A stretch of DNA of 31,812 nucleotides from a virus, in IMG/VR virus record IMGVR_UViG_3300037119_003295, positions 1 through 31,812 of that record, one strand, 5' to 3'. Numbering within the stretch: the first letter of the stretch is position 1; each line of letters begins with the position of its first letter. Positions 16,522 through 31,812 of this stretch are shown piece after piece. The translations under genes and the position numbers were made by a program. Below the pieces are notes generated by a model. The model saw only the letters and a program-made list of their open reading frames with translations. It was not told where the DNA came from and ran no database searches.

Positions 16522-16770
16522 CTACCCACCAATTTTATCATGAGCGAGACGTTCCTGCTCTAGAGCCCAAAGGGACTCCTCGTCGTTAACGACGGGTTTA
16601 TACTTAACCCTCGTTTTTTGGGGGAGAATTGTTTTCTTAATCGAGTCTACGGCGTCAGCTAGTGGTTTAGGCGATAGGCTTTTAGCTACCATGTAAACGA
16701 TTAAAATCTGCAGCAGAAATACTATAAAGATGAGCAGATACAAAATTGCCAGATCTATAGTAAAAGTCAC
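16522..16770 (-). CDS. Small membrane protein, holin candidate, overlapping GNAT gene
   Basis: About 82 residues from GTG 16770, chosen because AAGGGA lies six bases upstream; ATG 16785 would add five residues but has no spaced ribosome-binding site. One long N-terminal span (LAILYLLIFIVFLLQILIVYMV), then a basic amphipathic tail. The first 89 bases overlap the end of the acetyltransferase gene in another frame. The single-span plan with a cytoplasmic tail fits class III holins or a membrane accessory; unproven. Confidence 0.55.
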   Translation of the reverse strand: MTFTIDLAILYLLIFIVFLLQILIVYMVAKSLSPKPLADAVDSIKKTILPQKTRVKYKPVVNDEESLWALEQERLAHDKIGG

Positions 16771-17188
16771 GTCGCGTCCCTTCATGCTCTAAGCCCAGTT
16801 TCTCAAACATTTTTATAGCGCGGTTCCCATCGAAACTCTCACCGTAGATGCGGTTTAATCCGAGCGAATGAAAGCCCCATTCAAAGAGCGAAATAAGCCC
16901 GTCTTTAGCGAAACCTTGGTGCCAATACTCAGGGCCTACATAGAGCGAAAACTCAGCCCTGCGGTTAACCATGTCAATATCAGTCAACCCGCAGACGCCG
17001 ACCAGTTTGTCGTCCACATCCATCGCAAACATTTCGATCTTGGGGTCGACCCTTTGTTTTTCCAACCAATCGCAATGGTCCTGAAAATGAAGCGGAGCAA
17101 ACTGACGGCACCATTTATAAATTGCCGGATCATTTCGCCATTCAAATAGATATTTTAGGTCCCAGTCTTTAATCCGCCTTAGTCTCAA
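16682..17188 (-). CDS. GNAT N-acetyltransferase, PseH-like
   Basis: A 168-residue acetyltransferase of the GNAT fold. It opens with a RRIKDWDLKYLFEWRNDPAIYKW pattern (quoted in part: LFEWRNDPAIYKW), like the FlmH/PseH group that acetylates the 4-amino sugar in pseudaminic-type pathways, then a FAMDVDDKLVGVCGL strand, the acetyl-CoA loop GPEYWHQGFAKDG, and the RIYGESFDGNRAIKMFEKLGLEHEG ending (again partial). The start is TTG 17188; no ATG is nearby. It overlaps the Acb2-like gene by 20 bases. In this cluster PseH is likely, though RimJ-type GNATs look similar. Confidence 0.75.
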   Translation of the reverse strand: MRLRRIKDWDLKYLFEWRNDPAIYKWCRQFAPLHFQDHCDWLEKQRVDPKIEMFAMDVDDKLVGVCGLTDIDMVNRRAEFSLYVGPEYWHQGFAKDGLISLFEWGFHSLGLNRIYGESFDGNRAIKMFEKLGLEHEGTRRDFYYRSGNFVSAHLYSISAADFNRLHGS

Positions 17189-17366
17189 CCTTTGCCCCGC
17201 CTTCTTTCATTACACGGTCGTCCTCGTGTGCTTTTAGCATCCACCAGATAGCCTCTTGGCATTTAGCTAACGCCATGTCTTTACCGAACCCATCGGGGAC
17301 GTTCTTATAGACGTAGTTAACGCACGGCTCAAAATGCTTTACTGCTTCACTAATTTTTGGATCCAT
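17169..17366 (-). CDS. Acb2/Tad1-like hairpin protein (anti-CBASS candidate)
   Basis: A 65-residue protein from ATG 17366, supported by GAGGG six bases upstream. It reads HFEPCVNYVYKNVPDG and then KDMALAKCQEAIWWMLKAHE. This matches the shape of small Acb2/Tad1-type proteins: a first helix, a loop with proline, then a charged residue pair, A-L-A-K-x-x-E-A-x-x-W-x-x-K. Acb2 proteins form small complexes that bind cyclic oligonucleotide signals and blunt CBASS or Thoeris. The match is by eye over about 30 residues. It lies inside the sugar operon, overlapping both neighbours (17 and 20 bases), as counter-defence genes often hitchhike. Confidence 0.55.
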   Translation of the reverse strand: MDPKISEAVKHFEPCVNYVYKNVPDGFGKDMALAKCQEAIWWMLKAHEDDRVMKEGGAKVETKAD

Positions 17367-18549
17367 CTCGTACCCTCTGTGCAAATGGTGATTTAGGCAT
17401 AGCGCCTTGAAGTTTGACCTGACCAAGCTTCATGCGCGAAACAAATGATTTTAGGAACTCAAAGAACTGATAGTCAAACTCGCAGTTAGCGAATGAATAG
17501 AACCAGCTAGGACCGAACAAGAAACCCGCCTTTATAGCCTCTTGAAAGAATAAAGCCTTGTTAACAGGATCGCCGGTGAATACGCCCCTAGTCGGGTAAG
17601 CCTCAAGAGCCACATACGGGTTAGCAAGCTCATTAAACCGCTTAATAAATTGTTCGCCCTGTTCAATTAACTTACCAATTTTGTAATTGTGTTTATTTAG
17701 CAACGTATCAACAGTCCAGCGACAAGAAGCAAGTGATAGGGTTTCGCCGGCGTAAGTCGATGAAACAAAATAGCCACCGTCCATGATGGCTTTCTTGCCG
17801 CCAACAGCCGCTAATGGCAAACCGTTAGCTATTGCTTTACCGAGCAGAATTAAGTCGGGGTAGATATTTGTTGCTAGGGCGACTGAATGTTTGTCAAAAC
17901 GAAAGGCTGTAATAATTTCGTCAAAAATAAGCACAGTACCAGACTTATCACAACGACTTCGCAGATTTTGTAGCCACGCAATTCGCTCATCGTCGAGCTT
18001 AGAAATAACCGGCTCAATGATAACAGCAGCAACATTATCGAGAGGTATCGACTCATCAAATCTAACAATATCAGTGCAAGTATGAACGCCGGTTGCAGGG
18101 CTAGTAAGACTAACAAACTCATCCTCGTGTCCATGATAACCATCCGATAATACTAGTTTTCTTCCTGTATATGCTCTCGCCATTTTAATAGCCGCAGTAC
18201 ACGCCGCAGAGCCTGACTTTAGAAACTTAAACTTATCGACGAAGTAGAACATGCTCTTCAAGGCCTCAGCCGTTTCAACTTCATCAGTCGTCGGCAAGCT
18301 GTGGCTAAAACCTTTTTGCATGTGACGCGTTAAAGTTTCGATCAGAGATGGATGCGAATAGCCAAATAGATTGCAGCCAAGACCACAAATATAGTCCACA
18401 TATCTGGTCCCATCAGTTCCGTACACCCACCCCTGGCTACCACCTGATATATGCGTCGGATATACTCCGAAAACATGGCTATCGGGGTGCTTACTGTTCG
18501 TTAGCGCTCCCTGCGCTACCGAGTCTTGTGCACGTACCCACCAAGCCAT
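17350..18549 (-). CDS. Class III PLP-dependent aminotransferase (GSA aminomutase-like)
   Basis: About 399 residues from ATG 18549, one base after the stop of the cytidylyltransferase; ATG 18570 is an alternative. Fold type I PLP enzyme of the glutamate-1-semialdehyde aminomutase group: SGSAA phosphate cup near 112, YHGH near 138, FDEIITAFR with PLP-contacting Asp200, and LLGKAIANGLPLAAVGG with Schiff-base Lys248. The length is normal. In pseudaminic-type pathways the amino group is usually added by a DegT-family enzyme (PseC), so this class III enzyme in a sugar operon is unusual. It may replace PseC or act on another intermediate. No haem genes are nearby, so tetrapyrrole synthesis is unlikely. 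Confidence 0.82.
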   Translation of the reverse strand: MAWWVRAQDSVAQGALTNSKHPDSHVFGVYPTHISGGSQGWVYGTDGTRYVDYICGLGCNLFGYSHPSLIETLTRHMQKGFSHSLPTTDEVETAEALKSMFYFVDKFKFLKSGSAACTAAIKMARAYTGRKLVLSDGYHGHEDEFVSLTSPATGVHTCTDIVRFDESIPLDNVAAVIIEPVISKLDDERIAWLQNLRSRCDKSGTVLIFDEIITAFRFDKHSVALATNIYPDLILLGKAIANGLPLAAVGGKKAIMDGGYFVSSTYAGETLSLASCRWTVDTLLNKHNYKIGKLIEQGEQFIKRFNELANPYVALEAYPTRGVFTGDPVNKALFFQEAIKAGFLFGPSWFYSFANCEFDYQFFEFLKSFVSRMKLGQVKLQGAMPKSPFAQRVRDGSKN

Positions 18550-18550
18550 T

Positions 18551-19255
18551 TTAGAATCTAAAGACTGCATAGCCACGCTCTTTTGCTAATTTATATTTAT
18601 TATCAAGGCTCGTCTTTTTTCGGGTAACGGTTTCAAAGTCCTCTAAGGTATCTACACTGAGCTTAATATCGGCCAGATCAATATGGGCAAGCACCACACC
18701 AAAACGTGCCCAACGCGGCTTTTCACGCCGTAGTAGCGTCGTAACGTGCTCCTGATCAAACGAACTGGTAGCGTTATCGACAAGCCATTCAAACGCCCTA
18801 GCCGAGATAATCTCAACGTCGTAACCGTCAACAAAGGTGCGCATATCCTCGTAAGCATTTGAGCAGTAATCGAGGTTAATACCAATCGACGCGGTAATGT
18901 GCTTTGTAATGATGGTCGGGATAATTAGCGGGCAATCACCCGTTAACCGCACGATGTAGTCAGGCGAATATTTTTCGTAAGCAATCCTATATCGCTCAAG
19001 GACGTTATCCTCAGGACCTTCAATTACATCACGCTCATCAAAATGGTCTTTTAGCGGGTCATCTTTAGGAACAACCAAACAGGTTTTAGCTGTGATGTTA
19101 GTGCTACCCGACGCACGATTTACATAAGATGCGCTAAGTTGTGCGGTATTGAAAACATGCCCCGCCATGATTTGATCATCGATTATTCTAAGAGACTTTC
19201 CTGGTAGGCGTTTACTGCCCGATCTGGCTTGGATTGCAATTAAGACTTCTGGCAT
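18551..19255 (-). CDS. SpsF/NeuA-like cytidylyltransferase
   Basis: A 234-residue nucleotidyltransferase of the SpsF/NeuA/KdsB fold. It starts with the nucleotide loop IAIQARSGSKRLPGKSL (residues 6-22), then VVPKDD, GPEDNVLERYRIA, a metal-binding IVRLTGDCPLI near 100-110, and DIKLSVDTLEDFE. It would activate a nonulosonic acid as its CMP ester, or a related sugar. It overlaps the Gfo/Idh gene by 16 bases. The SpsF subgroup is often found beside NeuB, GNAT and dehydratase genes in bacterial surface-sugar clusters. Confidence 0.82.
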   Translation of the reverse strand: MPEVLIAIQARSGSKRLPGKSLRIIDDQIMAGHVFNTAQLSASYVNRASGSTNITAKTCLVVPKDDPLKDHFDERDVIEGPEDNVLERYRIAYEKYSPDYIVRLTGDCPLIIPTIITKHITASIGINLDYCSNAYEDMRTFVDGYDVEIISARAFEWLVDNATSSFDQEHVTTLLRREKPRWARFGVVLAHIDLADIKLSVDTLEDFETVTRKKTSLDNKYKLAKERGYAVFRF

Positions 19256-19860
19256 GCGTGCTCCAAAATCTTAGCAACCTTAGTGTGGGCGTGAAGCGCA
19301 TACTCCCAGTTAGATATCGGGTTAGCAATCCAGCGGTCGATCATGTCGATATAGGCTTGATCCATCATTTCGATACCAAGCTGTTTACCGTTAATCGTGC
19401 ATTGCCACTCAGGACTAGTGTTATTGACGATACAGCCGTCTTTTGCTAGGCCGAGAACATTAAGACAATCCCAGTAGAGCCCATCGCCCCCTGTTTTGAA
19501 ATAGTTGTAATAAGAAGGCTCATCTTGAGCGGTGCCAGCTATTTCGGCGTACTGGTTAACCATAGAAATCAGGTGCCGATCGCTTCTCCAAACGTCGTTA
19601 ACGTCGAGCAATGCGGAAAGCTCCTTAGTTAACGGTTTCTCGCACAAGATCGGCTTTTGAAAGCTTAGGCAGGCTGAAATGTCAGCCAGGTGTCTTTCGG
19701 TTGGTGTGCAAACAATAAAATGAGTCGCCTCGTGAGCCTGATAATGAAACGGTTCGTTCTTATCGTGACCAACGTGCGCTACACCAAGAAAGTTAAGAAT
19801 AGCTTTGTAACGAGAGGCCATATTGCCGTTATAGCCAAGTATGTAAACGAGTTTATTCAC
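19240..19860 (-). CDS. Short Gfo/Idh/MocA-family oxidoreductase
   Basis: A 206-residue protein with the N-terminal Rossmann part of the Gfo/Idh/MocA family: YILGYNGNMASRYKAIL, then FIVCTPTERHLADI and PILCEKPL, where Lys of EKP is the usual catalytic residue. The family is normally about 330-380 residues with a C-terminal beta-sheet domain; here about a third is missing and the region after residue 130 is compressed. It may be a reduced enzyme or lack substrate binding. The gene is intact and coupled: GTG start overlapping the dehydratase stop and an end overlapping the SpsF-like start. Reaction unknown; UDP-sugar oxidation or reduction is the family expectation. Confidence 0.7.
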   Translation of the reverse strand: MNKLVYILGYNGNMASRYKAILNFLGVAHVGHDKNEPFHYQAHEATHFIVCTPTERHLADISACLSFQKPILCEKPLTKELSALLDVNDVWRSDRHLISMVNQYAEIAGTAQDEPSYYNYFKTGGDGLYWDCLNVLGLAKDGCIVNNTSPEWQCTINGKQLGIEMMDQAYIDMIDRWIANPISNWEYALHAHTKVAKILEHACQKS

Positions 19861-20716
19861 CGAGTGTCCTTTCGACTAAAGCCATTAATTCATCGTCAGT
19901 GTATTTTGGCGCAGTGTTGCTTTTAAATTCAAAATCAGGGTCGTGATAATCGAGCGACTCGTGCATTTTCTCGCCAGGCCTAATAGGTATTGGAACAACC
20001 TTGTAATCATTGATACCCAAGTACTGCGCGGTAATACGAGCAAGGTCGATTAATGCCGCAGCTTTCATATTTGGGATATAAGGATTGCCGTCGTTTCCAA
20101 ACTTAAAGTTTTCGAGCATAAAGTTTGCCGCGTCGTCAATGTGGATCCAGAAGCGGGTCATATGTAAATCTGTGATGTATACTTTACGTTCTTGTTTCAG
20201 GGTTTGGACAAAGCTATGAAGCACAGAGCCCCTAGAACCGAGCACGTTACCCCATCGGAAAACATTGTAGATATCTCCGCCGCTTTTTACACCAGCGTCA
20301 AACCAAACCTTTTCAGACAAGGCTTTGCAATACCCGTAGCTATTGATAGGTAGCACCGCTTTATCGGTCGACGAGAACACGGCATAGCTAACCTCACTAA
20401 TCCGGCAAGCTTTAGCGACGTTAAGTGTTCCGGTTAAGTTGATTTTGATGCACTCAGATAGATTTGTCTCAGCGAGGTCCACGTGCTTCATCGCGGCTAA
20501 GTGAAATACTACGTCAGCGTCCCAACAGGCCTCGGTAACGCTTTCTAAATCACGTACATCACCAAGAACATAGCGACATCCGGGATATGTGGCGGCCATT
20601 TTCTTCTGCTTAATTTCTTCGCGGGAAAATATGGTTACTTCGTGACCAGAGAGTAAAAGCTTTGGGGTCAAAGCGTTTCCCAGGGTTCCAGTTCCGCCAA
20701 TAAGTAAAACTCTCAT
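19853..20716 (-). CDS. PseB/CapD-like UDP-sugar 4,6-dehydratase
   Basis: About 287 residues from ATG 20716 with AAGGG six bases upstream. An SDR-type NAD(P)-binding protein: GGTGTLG at residues 7-13, LGDVRD, HLAAMKHVD, then FSSTDKAVLPINSYGYCKALSEK with catalytic Tyr127-x3-Lys131, FRWGNVLGSRGSV, and TDLHMTRFWI. These are the signature blocks of PseB/FlaA1-type enzymes that convert UDP-GlcNAc to 4-keto-6-deoxy sugars, the first step of pseudaminic and related pathways. Slightly shorter than PseB (about 330). First enzyme of the cluster, translated just after the small membrane gene. Confidence 0.85.
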   Translation of the reverse strand: MRVLLIGGTGTLGNALTPKLLLSGHEVTIFSREEIKQKKMAATYPGCRYVLGDVRDLESVTEACWDADVVFHLAAMKHVDLAETNLSECIKINLTGTLNVAKACRISEVSYAVFSSTDKAVLPINSYGYCKALSEKVWFDAGVKSGGDIYNVFRWGNVLGSRGSVLHSFVQTLKQERKVYITDLHMTRFWIHIDDAANFMLENFKFGNDGNPYIPNMKAAALIDLARITAQYLGINDYKVVPIPIRPGEKMHESLDYHDPDFEFKSNTAPKYTDDELMALVERTLGE

Positions 20717-22193: not shown

Positions 22194-22670
22194 CTACCCT
22201 CCTAGATGTTTCCATCTCTGGTTTTTATTTATTACGCAAATCAATGCGGGCGAAACATTATATAGTTTAGCTAAACTTCTCTGTGTTTGGCCCGACTTAA
22301 TTCGTTTTCTTATTTCGATAACATCGTTATTTGTTAGTTTTGCCATATTGTGATCTTGACCAAGAACGCGGGCCTGTCTGTTTTTTCTTTTCATATCATT
22401 AGAATTATCTTGAACCGTACCCAAGAATAGGTGCTCTGGGTTAACGCACTGCGGTGTATCGCATTTATGGCAAACCAGCTTATCGGCTGGCCATTCTCCA
22501 TGAGCAATAAGCCATGACGCTCTATGCGCTCTTATCGATTTTCGATTAACAAAAAAACGACCATAATTTCCGCGTTTCTCATTAACCAGCCCAGTCCACA
22601 GCCAACAACCAGTATTCGGCTCTTCGATATAGCTTTCATGAAACCTTTTAACGTAGTGATCTGCGTACAA
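22194..22670 (-). CDS. HNH homing-type endonuclease
   Basis: A 158-residue HNH_3-type enzyme. It has GCWLWTGLVN, RAHRASWLIAHGEWP, then LVCHKCDTPQCVNPEHLFLGT with Cys67/His68/Cys70, Cys75, Asn77 and His80, and DNSNDMKRKNRQ. A C-terminal HTH (TQRSLAKLYNVSPALICVINKNQRWK) would add target specificity. It is inserted between fibre and large internal-protein genes on the same strand, typical of free-standing homing endonucleases in virion operons. It starts two bases before the ejection-type gene's end. Confidence 0.85.
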   Translation of the reverse strand: MYADHYVKRFHESYIEEPNTGCWLWTGLVNEKRGNYGRFFVNRKSIRAHRASWLIAHGEWPADKLVCHKCDTPQCVNPEHLFLGTVQDNSNDMKRKNRQARVLGQDHNMAKLTNNDVIEIRKRIKSGQTQRSLAKLYNVSPALICVINKNQRWKHLGG

Positions 22671-31258: not shown

Positions 31259-31812
31259 CTATGAATAAAGTATTTTTTTCTGCGCTTTAGCATCCGCCAT
31301 TTGCGCGTCTAGCTCGTCGTTGATATTGAACATTCTAAGGCAATCAGCCAAATCCATATAGCGAAAAGCCGCGATGTTACCTTCGGGGTATGATCCGAGA
31401 CAGCCCCCACTACAATTATAGTATATTCCAGGCGCCCGCATAGCCACCGAGTCAAAATAAGCTTTAAAGTTATAGTAGGACGGCCATGTTTTACGACGTA
31501 TCCCGTAAACATCTGTACACCACATGACGTGGCCCATATTTGCGTCGTACTTACTATCCCAAGCATGGAACCTATGATCATAACCAAAACAGAAATCTGC
31601 ACCTGTATAGATAATCTGGTGTGCCGCCAAAATTGACTTAGCAAAGTATAAACACGCACCTAGTACATTCCCACCAGTTGACAAGAAGTGATTAAACTCC
31701 TCGATCGCATCTATTTTTTGTATGAGCTCGGCATTCGGTAACGGCGAGTTAAAAAATAGTATCTTGCCTTGCCACTTCTCCAATAAACGCGGATCGGTGG
31801 CAATAAAGGCGA
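31259..31812 (-). CDS. Partial DUF115 (Maf/MptE-like) protein
   Basis: C-terminal 184 residues of a protein whose start lies beyond the window; the frame stays open to the edge (ATDPRLLEKWQGKILFFNSPL). It has the DUF115 pattern: a TDP segment, TGGNVLGACLYFAKSILAAHQIIYTGADFCFG and then a HAWDSKYD motif, and a C-terminal loop with SYPEG. DUF115 includes Maf flagellar glycosyltransferases, which move nonulosonic acid onto protein, and archaeal MptE-type enzymes. In a phage with nonulosonic-acid genes, a transferase role is attractive but unproven. Cys-rich C-terminal piece (YNCSGGCLGSYP) is unusual. Confidence 0.5.
   Translation of the reverse strand, partial: AFIATDPRLLEKWQGKILFFNSPLPNAELIQKIDAIEEFNHFLSTGGNVLGACLYFAKSILAAHQIIYTGADFCFGYDHRFHAWDSKYDANMGHVMWCTDVYGIRRKTWPSYYNFKAYFDSVAMRAPGIYYNCSGGCLGSYPEGNIAAFRYMDLADCLRMFNINDELDAQMADAKAQKKILYS

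Follow-up and report, generated by a model that had tools for sequence, protein, structure and literature searches.

A nonulosonate-type sugar operon and a Maf-like gene beside the capsid genes suggest virion glycosylation in a virus lineage

The stretch of DNA analyzed here (the window) is an IMG/VR virus record, IMGVR_UViG_3300037119_003295, of 31,812 bases. Its minus strand carries an operon of sugar genes resembling those for nonulosonic (sialic-acid-like) acids, together with a NeuB-like synthase gene elsewhere and part of a gene for a Maf-like putative glycosyltransferase at the end of the window. A first-pass annotation, made by a model from the letters alone, had placed six open reading frames (ORFs) in the operon and at the NeuB locus. 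All six are present on the minus strand, as is a small ORF that was absent from its list:

19853..20716, minus strand: PseB-like 4,6-dehydratase dependent on nicotinamide adenine dinucleotide (NAD), 287 amino acids (aa)
19240..19860, minus strand: mini Gfo/Idh-type oxidoreductase, 206 aa
18551..19255, minus strand: SpsF-like cytidylyltransferase, a putative cytidine monophosphate (CMP)-sugar synthetase, 234 aa
17350..18576, minus strand: AT3, a class III (glutamate-1-semialdehyde [GSA]-type) pyridoxal phosphate (PLP) aminotransferase, 408 aa; GTG start, in-frame ATG alternative at 18570
17169..17366, minus strand: small ORF between the AT3 and GNAT genes, 65 codons
16682..17188, minus strand: PseH-like GNAT N-acetyltransferase, 168 aa
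2339..3136, minus strand: NeuB-like phosphoenolpyruvate (PEP)-condensing synthase, short form, 265 aa; outside the operon
31259..31812, minus strand: Maf/MptE-like (PF01973) putative glycosyltransferase, C-terminal 183 codons; complete at L003:17512-18519, 335 aa

Neighbors in the operon overlap by 8, 16, 26 (or 20), 17, and 20 nucleotides (nt), and the stop codon of the upstream ORF lies immediately before the ATG of the PseB-like gene (20716). These measured distances make coupled translation, which the first-pass annotation had proposed, plausible. The small ORF (residues 3-65) had no Pfam or PHROG match and no match in 20 related records.

Searches with Pfam profile hidden Markov models agreed with the families assigned to all six proteins in the first-pass annotation, and all but the Gfo/Idh protein scored over the curated cutoff. 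The PseB-like protein matched Polysacc_synt_2 (PF02719, 221.7 bits, 1.6e-65), and its closest PDB relative was the UDP-GlcNAc C6 dehydratase 2gn4 (4.4e-53). The SpsF-like protein matched CTP_transf_3 (PF02348, 57.6 bits, 2e-15) and, in the PDB, the cytidylyltransferase 6oew (9.2e-18). AT3 matched Aminotran_3 (PF00202, 125.3 bits, 3.2e-36), the GNAT matched Acetyltransf_3 (PF13302, 69.9 bits, 4.7e-19), and the NeuB-like protein matched PF03102 (144.3 bits, 5.6e-42); the mini Gfo/Idh protein reached 22.4 bits (2.1e-4) with GFO_IDH_MocA (PF01408), under the cutoff of 24. Scores with the NCBIfam equivalogs stayed below their cutoffs: 213 bits against 408 for PseB (TIGR03589), 70.1 against 93.1 for PseH (TIGR03585), and 120.6 against 340 for PseI. 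We therefore regard these proteins as enzymes of these kinds and not as certified members of the pseudaminic acid pathway.

The first-pass annotation had named a loss of catalytic residues as grounds for refutation; most are conserved in alignments of the lineage described below. In the PseB-like proteins, T117, D118, K119, and K131 occur in 18/18 rows and Y127 in 17/18; the mini Gfo/Idh proteins keep G9, G12, and E74-K75-P76 in 20/20 rows, and the AT3 proteins keep the PLP lysine K247 in 21/21. Q9, R11, R16, P18, K20, D107, and D202 of SpsF are found in 21 of 22 rows, the remaining row being a gap, with D146 in 19 and E148 in 18. NeuB retains K34, K94, S119, Y149, S175, H177, E196, K197, H198, and D208 in 21/21 rows and varies at E7, S97, E99, C145, and S147. 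The window's NeuB lacks a C-terminal SAF-like stretch that is apparently present in several aligned relatives.

When viral_contigs was scanned with single proteins, every contig recovered belonged to the same virus; alignment-based searches reached further. The SpsF alignment picked up 172 relatives in this collection, the best 80 of them being used, and the other sets likewise consisted of the best 80 of at least 567 bacterial SpsF relatives, of 141 Maf relatives, and of 282 relatives of the major capsid protein (MCP). Thirty-two virus loci had long SpsF matches (L091-L122; 32-47% identity, the window's own virus at 100%). The SpsF gene is followed by AT3 in all 32, and the whole five-gene order lies on one strand in 23, the window's own virus among them, so that the single operon described in the first-pass annotation is more than a chance grouping. 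In the remaining 9 loci at least one operon gene was unmatched, which in some cases reflects a contig that stops within the operon; several of the lineage contigs are near-duplicates (L092/L093, L111/L112). Adding four records (L128, L137, L138, and L167) to the lineage loci gave a set of 36, many of them fragments; NeuB occurs in 30 and PF01973 in 26 of these, and PF01973 also matched in 4 of 14 control genomes, all archaea. A NeuB-family synthase and a CMP-sugar-type cytidylyltransferase share one genome in the window and in 20/20 near-complete records. In 18 of these 20, the genes for NeuB, the terminase large subunit (TerL), and the portal follow in this order on one strand; G030 fits only with its ends joined, and the portal match of G033 is on the opposite strand.

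In the SpsF and AT3 trees, which left out locus L104 and short matches, the 31 lineage sequences formed one clade each, among 159 sequences (support 0.947) and 95 sequences (support 0.952), respectively. Pairwise distances followed those of TerL for SpsF (rho 0.71), NeuB (0.70), portal (0.67), Maf (0.66), AT3 (0.58), and Gfo (0.54), and much of the gene set therefore seems, from these comparisons, to be old in the lineage. Ratios of nonsynonymous to synonymous substitution (dN/dS) in the close pair G021/G022 were 0.08 for Maf, 0.10 for PseB, 0.14 for AT3, and 0.33 for NeuB, and the Gfo proteins were identical; SpsF and GNAT values were set aside because their frames run past the likely starts. 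The distant pair G019/G031 gave 0.12 for both Maf and AT3, with synonymous sites near or past saturation. Other virus contigs (L123-L170) carry SpsF together with AT3, PseB, or NeuB at lower identity, and some of them may represent separate nonulosonate clusters in other viruses.

The Maf-like gene is truncated by the end of the window. Two further contigs contributed four loci with 99.96-100% identity to the window; L003 and L004, which lie on different contigs, cross window base 1, continue through 4,829 new bases, and then run from window base 31812 downwards. From this arrangement, the complete genome is probably about 36.6 kb long and either circular or permuted. The 4,829 bases absent from the window (L003:13137-17965) encode a P22-like portal (PF16510), the capsid protein (a PHROG major head protein), a decoration protein candidate, unnamed ORFs, and part of the Maf-like protein. 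The complete Maf-like protein matched PF01973 with 66.7 bits (cutoff 34.6) and had no match in PHROGs, and its GxGPS residues are present in 20/20 lineage rows. The MCP, decoration, and Maf-like genes are consecutive on one strand in 19 of the 20 near-complete records, G033 matching none of the three.

To avoid selecting through the sugar genes, we also searched with the capsid alignment alone, some of the resulting records being shared with the SpsF-derived set. At 76 of 80 loci (the best 80 of 282 capsid relatives) the Maf-like gene lies on the same strand 290-810 nt downstream of the capsid gene; it is present in 68/68 of those loci with at least 1.9 kb of downstream sequence, and the 4 loci without it extend less than 400 nt beyond the capsid gene. 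Among 19 further records reached via capsid or Maf, several of them cut at their ends, 17 had at least one sugar-gene match, and SpsF was found in 9 by the lineage profile and in 8 by Pfam's SpsF model. Twelve remote capsid relatives in Pseudomonadota genomes, serving as an outgroup, had no Maf-like gene on the stretches examined. The guess of virion glycosylation in the first-pass annotation gains strength from this gene beside the capsid genes, which lay outside that reader's view.

A PDB profile search with the phage Maf-like sequences placed 5mu5, the Magnetospirillum Maf glycosyltransferase, first (6e-5). A structure model built from 30 phage sequences (predicted local distance difference test [pLDDT] score, 93.9) again had 5mu5 as its top Foldseek match (1.4e-9), and a VIA comparison aligned residues 34-314 of the model to 238-512 of 5mu5 with a Z score of 22.2 over 240 residues. 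Lower matches were MptE (Z 14.6), SteA (10.3), and the CMP-sialyltransferases ST8SiaIII (9.8) and CstII (9.2). The phage protein thus combines the PF01973 domain with the Maf/sialyltransferase fold. Side matches to phiX174 spike proteins, which followed 5mu5 in the PDB search at 0.019 and above and appeared in Pfam as a weak match of part of the protein (L003:17512-18519) to spike protein G (0.0048), are probably due to chance.

The model of the protein encoded between the capsid and Maf-like genes (pLDDT 80.1) had 10 Foldseek matches with E <= 0.001, all of them capsid structure chains of tailed viruses (Pam3, HFTV1, T1) or the phi29 head fiber, with TM-scores of 0.53-0.63 by query length (best 8hdt_G, 4.4e-5). 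It also matched a TW1 structure with a capsid-stabilizing protein (5e-3). Several of the matched chains we take to be cement or decoration proteins, and the gene is accordingly predicted from this model to encode a decoration protein. Ser and Thr make up 19.7% of the decoration protein, 17.6% of the capsid protein, and 24.5% of the fiber-like protein (mean over 20 fiber rows), and positions 13, 63, and 67 of the decoration protein are Ser or Thr in 20/20 rows. Richness in Ser/Thr is in itself not proof of glycosylation.

On balance, we think it probable that this phage synthesizes a nonulosonate-like sugar, activates it as a CMP-sugar, and uses the Maf-like enzyme to attach it by O-glycosylation to its own virion. 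The proposal draws on gene content, gene order, conservation, catalytic residues, and predicted folds, from which we infer the activities, the sugar, the acceptor, and the benefit. Going by enzyme family, the PseB-like dehydratase would form a 4-keto-6-deoxy sugar, AT3 would add an amino group to this product, the GNAT would acetylate the aminated sugar, NeuB would condense the freed sugar with PEP, and SpsF would activate the NeuB product as a CMP-sugar. In the cytoplasm, the Maf-like glycosyltransferase would then attach this sugar to Ser/Thr residues on virion proteins, the acceptor being most likely the decoration or capsid protein, with the Ser/Thr-rich tail fiber as second choice. No step in this order falls to the mini Gfo/Idh protein, alone among the conserved enzymes of the set.

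Several points weigh against this proposal. PF01973 also includes the MptE pterin kinases, the phage Maf-like protein is half the length of 5mu5, and adjacent genes need not act on each other. Two records (G047 and G051, 29 and 22 kb) have the Maf-like gene and no sugar-gene match; a third (G037, 35.8 kb) keeps the Maf-like gene and only a shortened AT3, its other sugar genes being unmatched. That AT3 remnant (L421:8140-9090, 316 aa) lies behind the fiber gene and, by eye, has no lysine at the PLP lysine position. Another donor or another role of the Maf-like protein is therefore possible. Distances also track those of TerL weakly for MCP (0.35), GNAT (0.32), and PseB (0.28) and hardly for the decoration protein (0.10); PseB, GNAT, and the surface proteins seem, by these values, to exchange more or to evolve differently. 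The spsF mutant of Bacillus subtilis was not complemented, according to the excerpted text of PMC7439481. Finally, since no PseC-, PseG-, or NeuC-type enzyme was found, no complete known route can be written down.

Those searches covered the related records with 14 control genomes alongside. A PseC-type DegT aminotransferase (PF01041) was found in 0/34 related records and in 14/14 controls, PseG (TIGR03590) in 0/36 and 5/14, and a NeuC-type Epimerase_2 (PF02350) in 0/36 and 11/14; the 36 records exclude the window record and include a contig of the same virus (G001). The larger window ORFs that were scanned likewise showed no PseG- or NeuC-type enzyme. The UDP-sugar hydrolase which the first-pass annotation could not see is thus absent from all 36 related records tested, and the pathway is probably not canonical. 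A host-encoded hydrolase of PseG or NeuC type could still act for the phage. We rejected the canonical pseudaminic acid pathway, given the lack of DegT, PseG, and NeuC and the class III nature of AT3. The earlier statement that five of six pseudaminic-type steps are covered holds for the enzyme families but was too strong, as the PseB, PseH, and PseI equivalog scores are below cutoff, the aminotransferase is of class III, and DegT is missing.

What AT3 and the mini Gfo/Idh protein do is where the first alternative departs. The product could be another ulosonic acid (an 8- or 9-amino ulosonate, for example). AT3 and the mini Gfo/Idh enzyme would then act after or beside the condensation, and the transfer to virion proteins would be unchanged. 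Among solved structures related to AT3, GSA aminomutases come first, followed also by C-6' aminotransferases. Bacterial AT3 genes often lie directly behind SpsF, frequently alongside a PseC-like gene: of the 37 bacterial SpsF loci with an AT3-like gene (drawn from the 80 best of at least 567 relatives), 27 have a PseC-like gene in the vicinity, so AT3 need not substitute for PseC. Among 32 bacterial genomes with SpsF, PseG matched in 28, over the cutoff in 21, and AT3 lies directly behind SpsF in 8; all 4 genomes without a PseG match (L050, L058, L065, L076) are among these 8 (hypergeometric 0.0019, a post hoc count uncorrected for kinship that concerns PseG alone, NeuC not having been sought in those genomes). 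This hints that bacteria, too, may have a hydrolase-free variant. Three more genomes (L014, L051, L061), however, have only weak PseG matches below 31 bits and no AT3 behind SpsF, and the PseB-like and PseH-like genes of the phage point to a 4,6-dideoxy amino sugar. We consider such a product possible, though the less expected outcome.

The most specific version of our proposal is that a widespread uncultured lineage coats its capsid with its own sialic-acid-like sugar through a shortened pathway lacking PseC and PseG/NeuC, in which amination would fall to AT3 and the mini Gfo/Idh enzyme would possibly release uridine diphosphate (UDP) by NAD-dependent elimination. To our knowledge, the canonical pseudaminic acid pathway has no place for a Gfo/Idh enzyme. 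Gfo/Idh-type glycosidases cleave glycosidic bonds with NAD. In this detailed form the idea is tentative, and we would expect at least some part of it to fail.

The acceptor may also lie elsewhere. The sugar could modify the host, with the Maf-like enzyme acting on host flagellin or the CMP-sugar entering surface glycans, so that receptors are changed and other phages excluded. Known Mafs act on flagellin (excerpt of PMC11339370), phage enzymes altering host pseudaminic acid exist (excerpt of PMC12053666), and 9 of 34 related records carry an integrase, so some lineage members may be temperate. The other 25 records, some of them incomplete, show no integrase, and the Maf-like gene invariably lies next to the capsid genes (68/68), which makes host modification unlikely in our view. 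We judge it similarly doubtful that the tail fiber, and not the capsid, is the acceptor, with glycosylation tuning receptor binding. A fiber-like relative lies upstream of the sugar operon in 20 of 32 loci, and the fiber-like product is the most Ser/Thr-rich among the 12 families counted; high Ser/Thr is usual in fibers, however, and it is the decoration gene that the Maf-like gene follows in 19 of 20 records.

We consider it very unlikely that the phage PF01973 domain marks an MptE-like pyrophosphokinase or some other nonglycosyl enzyme unrelated to the sugar operon: the Pfam family bears the MptE-like name, MptE structures come second in the fold comparison, and three relatives have the gene but no intact sugar genes, yet Maf 5mu5 is clearly first, sialyltransferases are also among the matches, and the gene accompanies sugar genes in 17 of the 19 records found via capsid or Maf. 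Phages able to glycosylate their own DNA are known (excerpt of PMC12619734), yet we give next to no credence to the set hypermodifying phage DNA or serving as a defense system (the latter rejected), as the Maf/sialyltransferase-like fold points to protein or glycan acceptors and PADLOC had no match for the 7 proteins given.

The virion glycosylation proposed here has partial precedents, cited below from excerpts of each paper. The phage set resembles the pseudaminic and legionaminic acid pathways (PseBCHGIF; B. subtilis SpsM-C-D-G-E-F) in its PseB-like dehydratase, PseH-like GNAT, NeuB/PseI-like synthase, and SpsF-type activator; it differs in lacking the DegT enzyme PseC and PseG/NeuC, in having a class III aminotransferase and a mini Gfo/Idh enzyme instead, and in being phage-encoded. 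One proposed CMP-legionaminic acid route of B. subtilis includes SpsF along with SpsC, D, E, G, and M (PMC7439481). Maf flagellin glycosyltransferases have PF01973 as their central domain, and published Mafs use CMP-nonulosonates, accept several CMP-sugars, and modify Ser/Thr (PMC11339370). The phage protein shares this domain and has a Maf (5MU5) as its best fold match; at 335 aa it is far shorter than that Maf, with its 632 resolved (666) residues, which leaves the flanking domains absent or strongly reduced, and its gene lies beside capsid genes and not flagellin genes. Since the flanking N- and C-terminal domains and the flagellin context are lacking, we call it Maf-like and not a flagellin Maf.

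Phage virion glycosylation as such is known, and in mycobacteriophages phage glycosyltransferases are reportedly considered responsible. Glycans there are attached to capsid and tail tube subunits (Freeman 2023, via PMC12619734), and responsibility of a phage glycosyltransferase has been suggested for one phage (PMC11256854). The likeness would be glycans on phage proteins; the difference is the combination of a whole sugar-synthesis set with a Maf-like transferase. The Acinetobacter phage proteins EpaA and EpaB are also phage-borne enzymes dealing with nonulosonic acid, but neither nucleotide-sugar synthesis nor protein transfer is described in the excerpted part of PMC12053666, and PMC7771536, as excerpted, concerns removal and not synthesis of sialic acid. 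Among the top-ranked open-licence PMC papers (the first 1-20 per search), none described a phage combining nonulosonate synthesis with a Maf-like gene.

A megablast comparison of 21 kb of window sequence with 50,697 phage records gave no match, and protein searches of the same records gave none for NeuB, SpsF (E 1e-5), or the Maf-like protein (E 0.01). AT3 matched in 59 and PseB in 74 of these records, all below 60% identity, and MCP in 20, with 23-34% identity in the 12 matches covering at least 79% of MCP. Some phage records (OR844989, OR844991, OR849864, and similar) are unannotated, named as Staphylococcus, Listeria, or Salmonella phage, and hold bacterial-type metabolic genes; they may be contaminated with bacterial sequence.

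Among 398 genomes from the phylum to which L026 belongs (an Afifella metagenome-assembled genome [MAG], hence Pseudomonadota), 12 matched the MCP profile; the phyla of L021 (Pedobacter) and L024 (a Verrucomicrobia MAG) gave 0 of 395 and 0 of 387, respectively, an empty result being uninformative here. These 12 are distant relatives, scoring 70-233 bits with the lineage profile. Their stretches of 4.3 to 20 kb had no Maf, decoration, portal, NeuB, PseB, Gfo, SpsF, or AT3 profile match and gave low scores for GNAT (16 bits), fiber (20), and TerL (32). We take this as a weak hint of a host among the Pseudomonadota.

Other features complete the phage context:

719..2044, minus strand: TerL (PHROG 2, 2.3e-40), marking the phage context
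21014..22174, minus strand: tail-fiber-like (our own label), Ser/Thr-rich protein, upstream of the operon
22194-22670: HNH endonuclease gene, within the late minus-strand genes
L003:12629-13021: FmdB-like zinc-ribbon protein, between terminase and portal

The tail-fiber-like protein had no Pfam or PHROG match. Contig L001, 99.97% identical to the window over the operon, has a different tail-fiber-like gene just upstream (L001:1-727); the boundary at window 21012 is sharp and looks like an allele swap of a receptor-binding candidate. What is apparently the same FmdB-like family, judged by eye, occurs in 20/20 related records.

If our proposal is true, bacterial viruses would produce a sialic-acid-like coat for themselves, comparable to what bacteria have on their flagella and capsules. 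The lineage would then offer a compact genetic system to probe the roles of virion glycans in stability, host adsorption, and evasion, a small Maf-like enzyme acting on nonflagellin proteins, and a case in which to test whether nonulosonates can be made with neither the known aminotransferase nor the known hydrolase.

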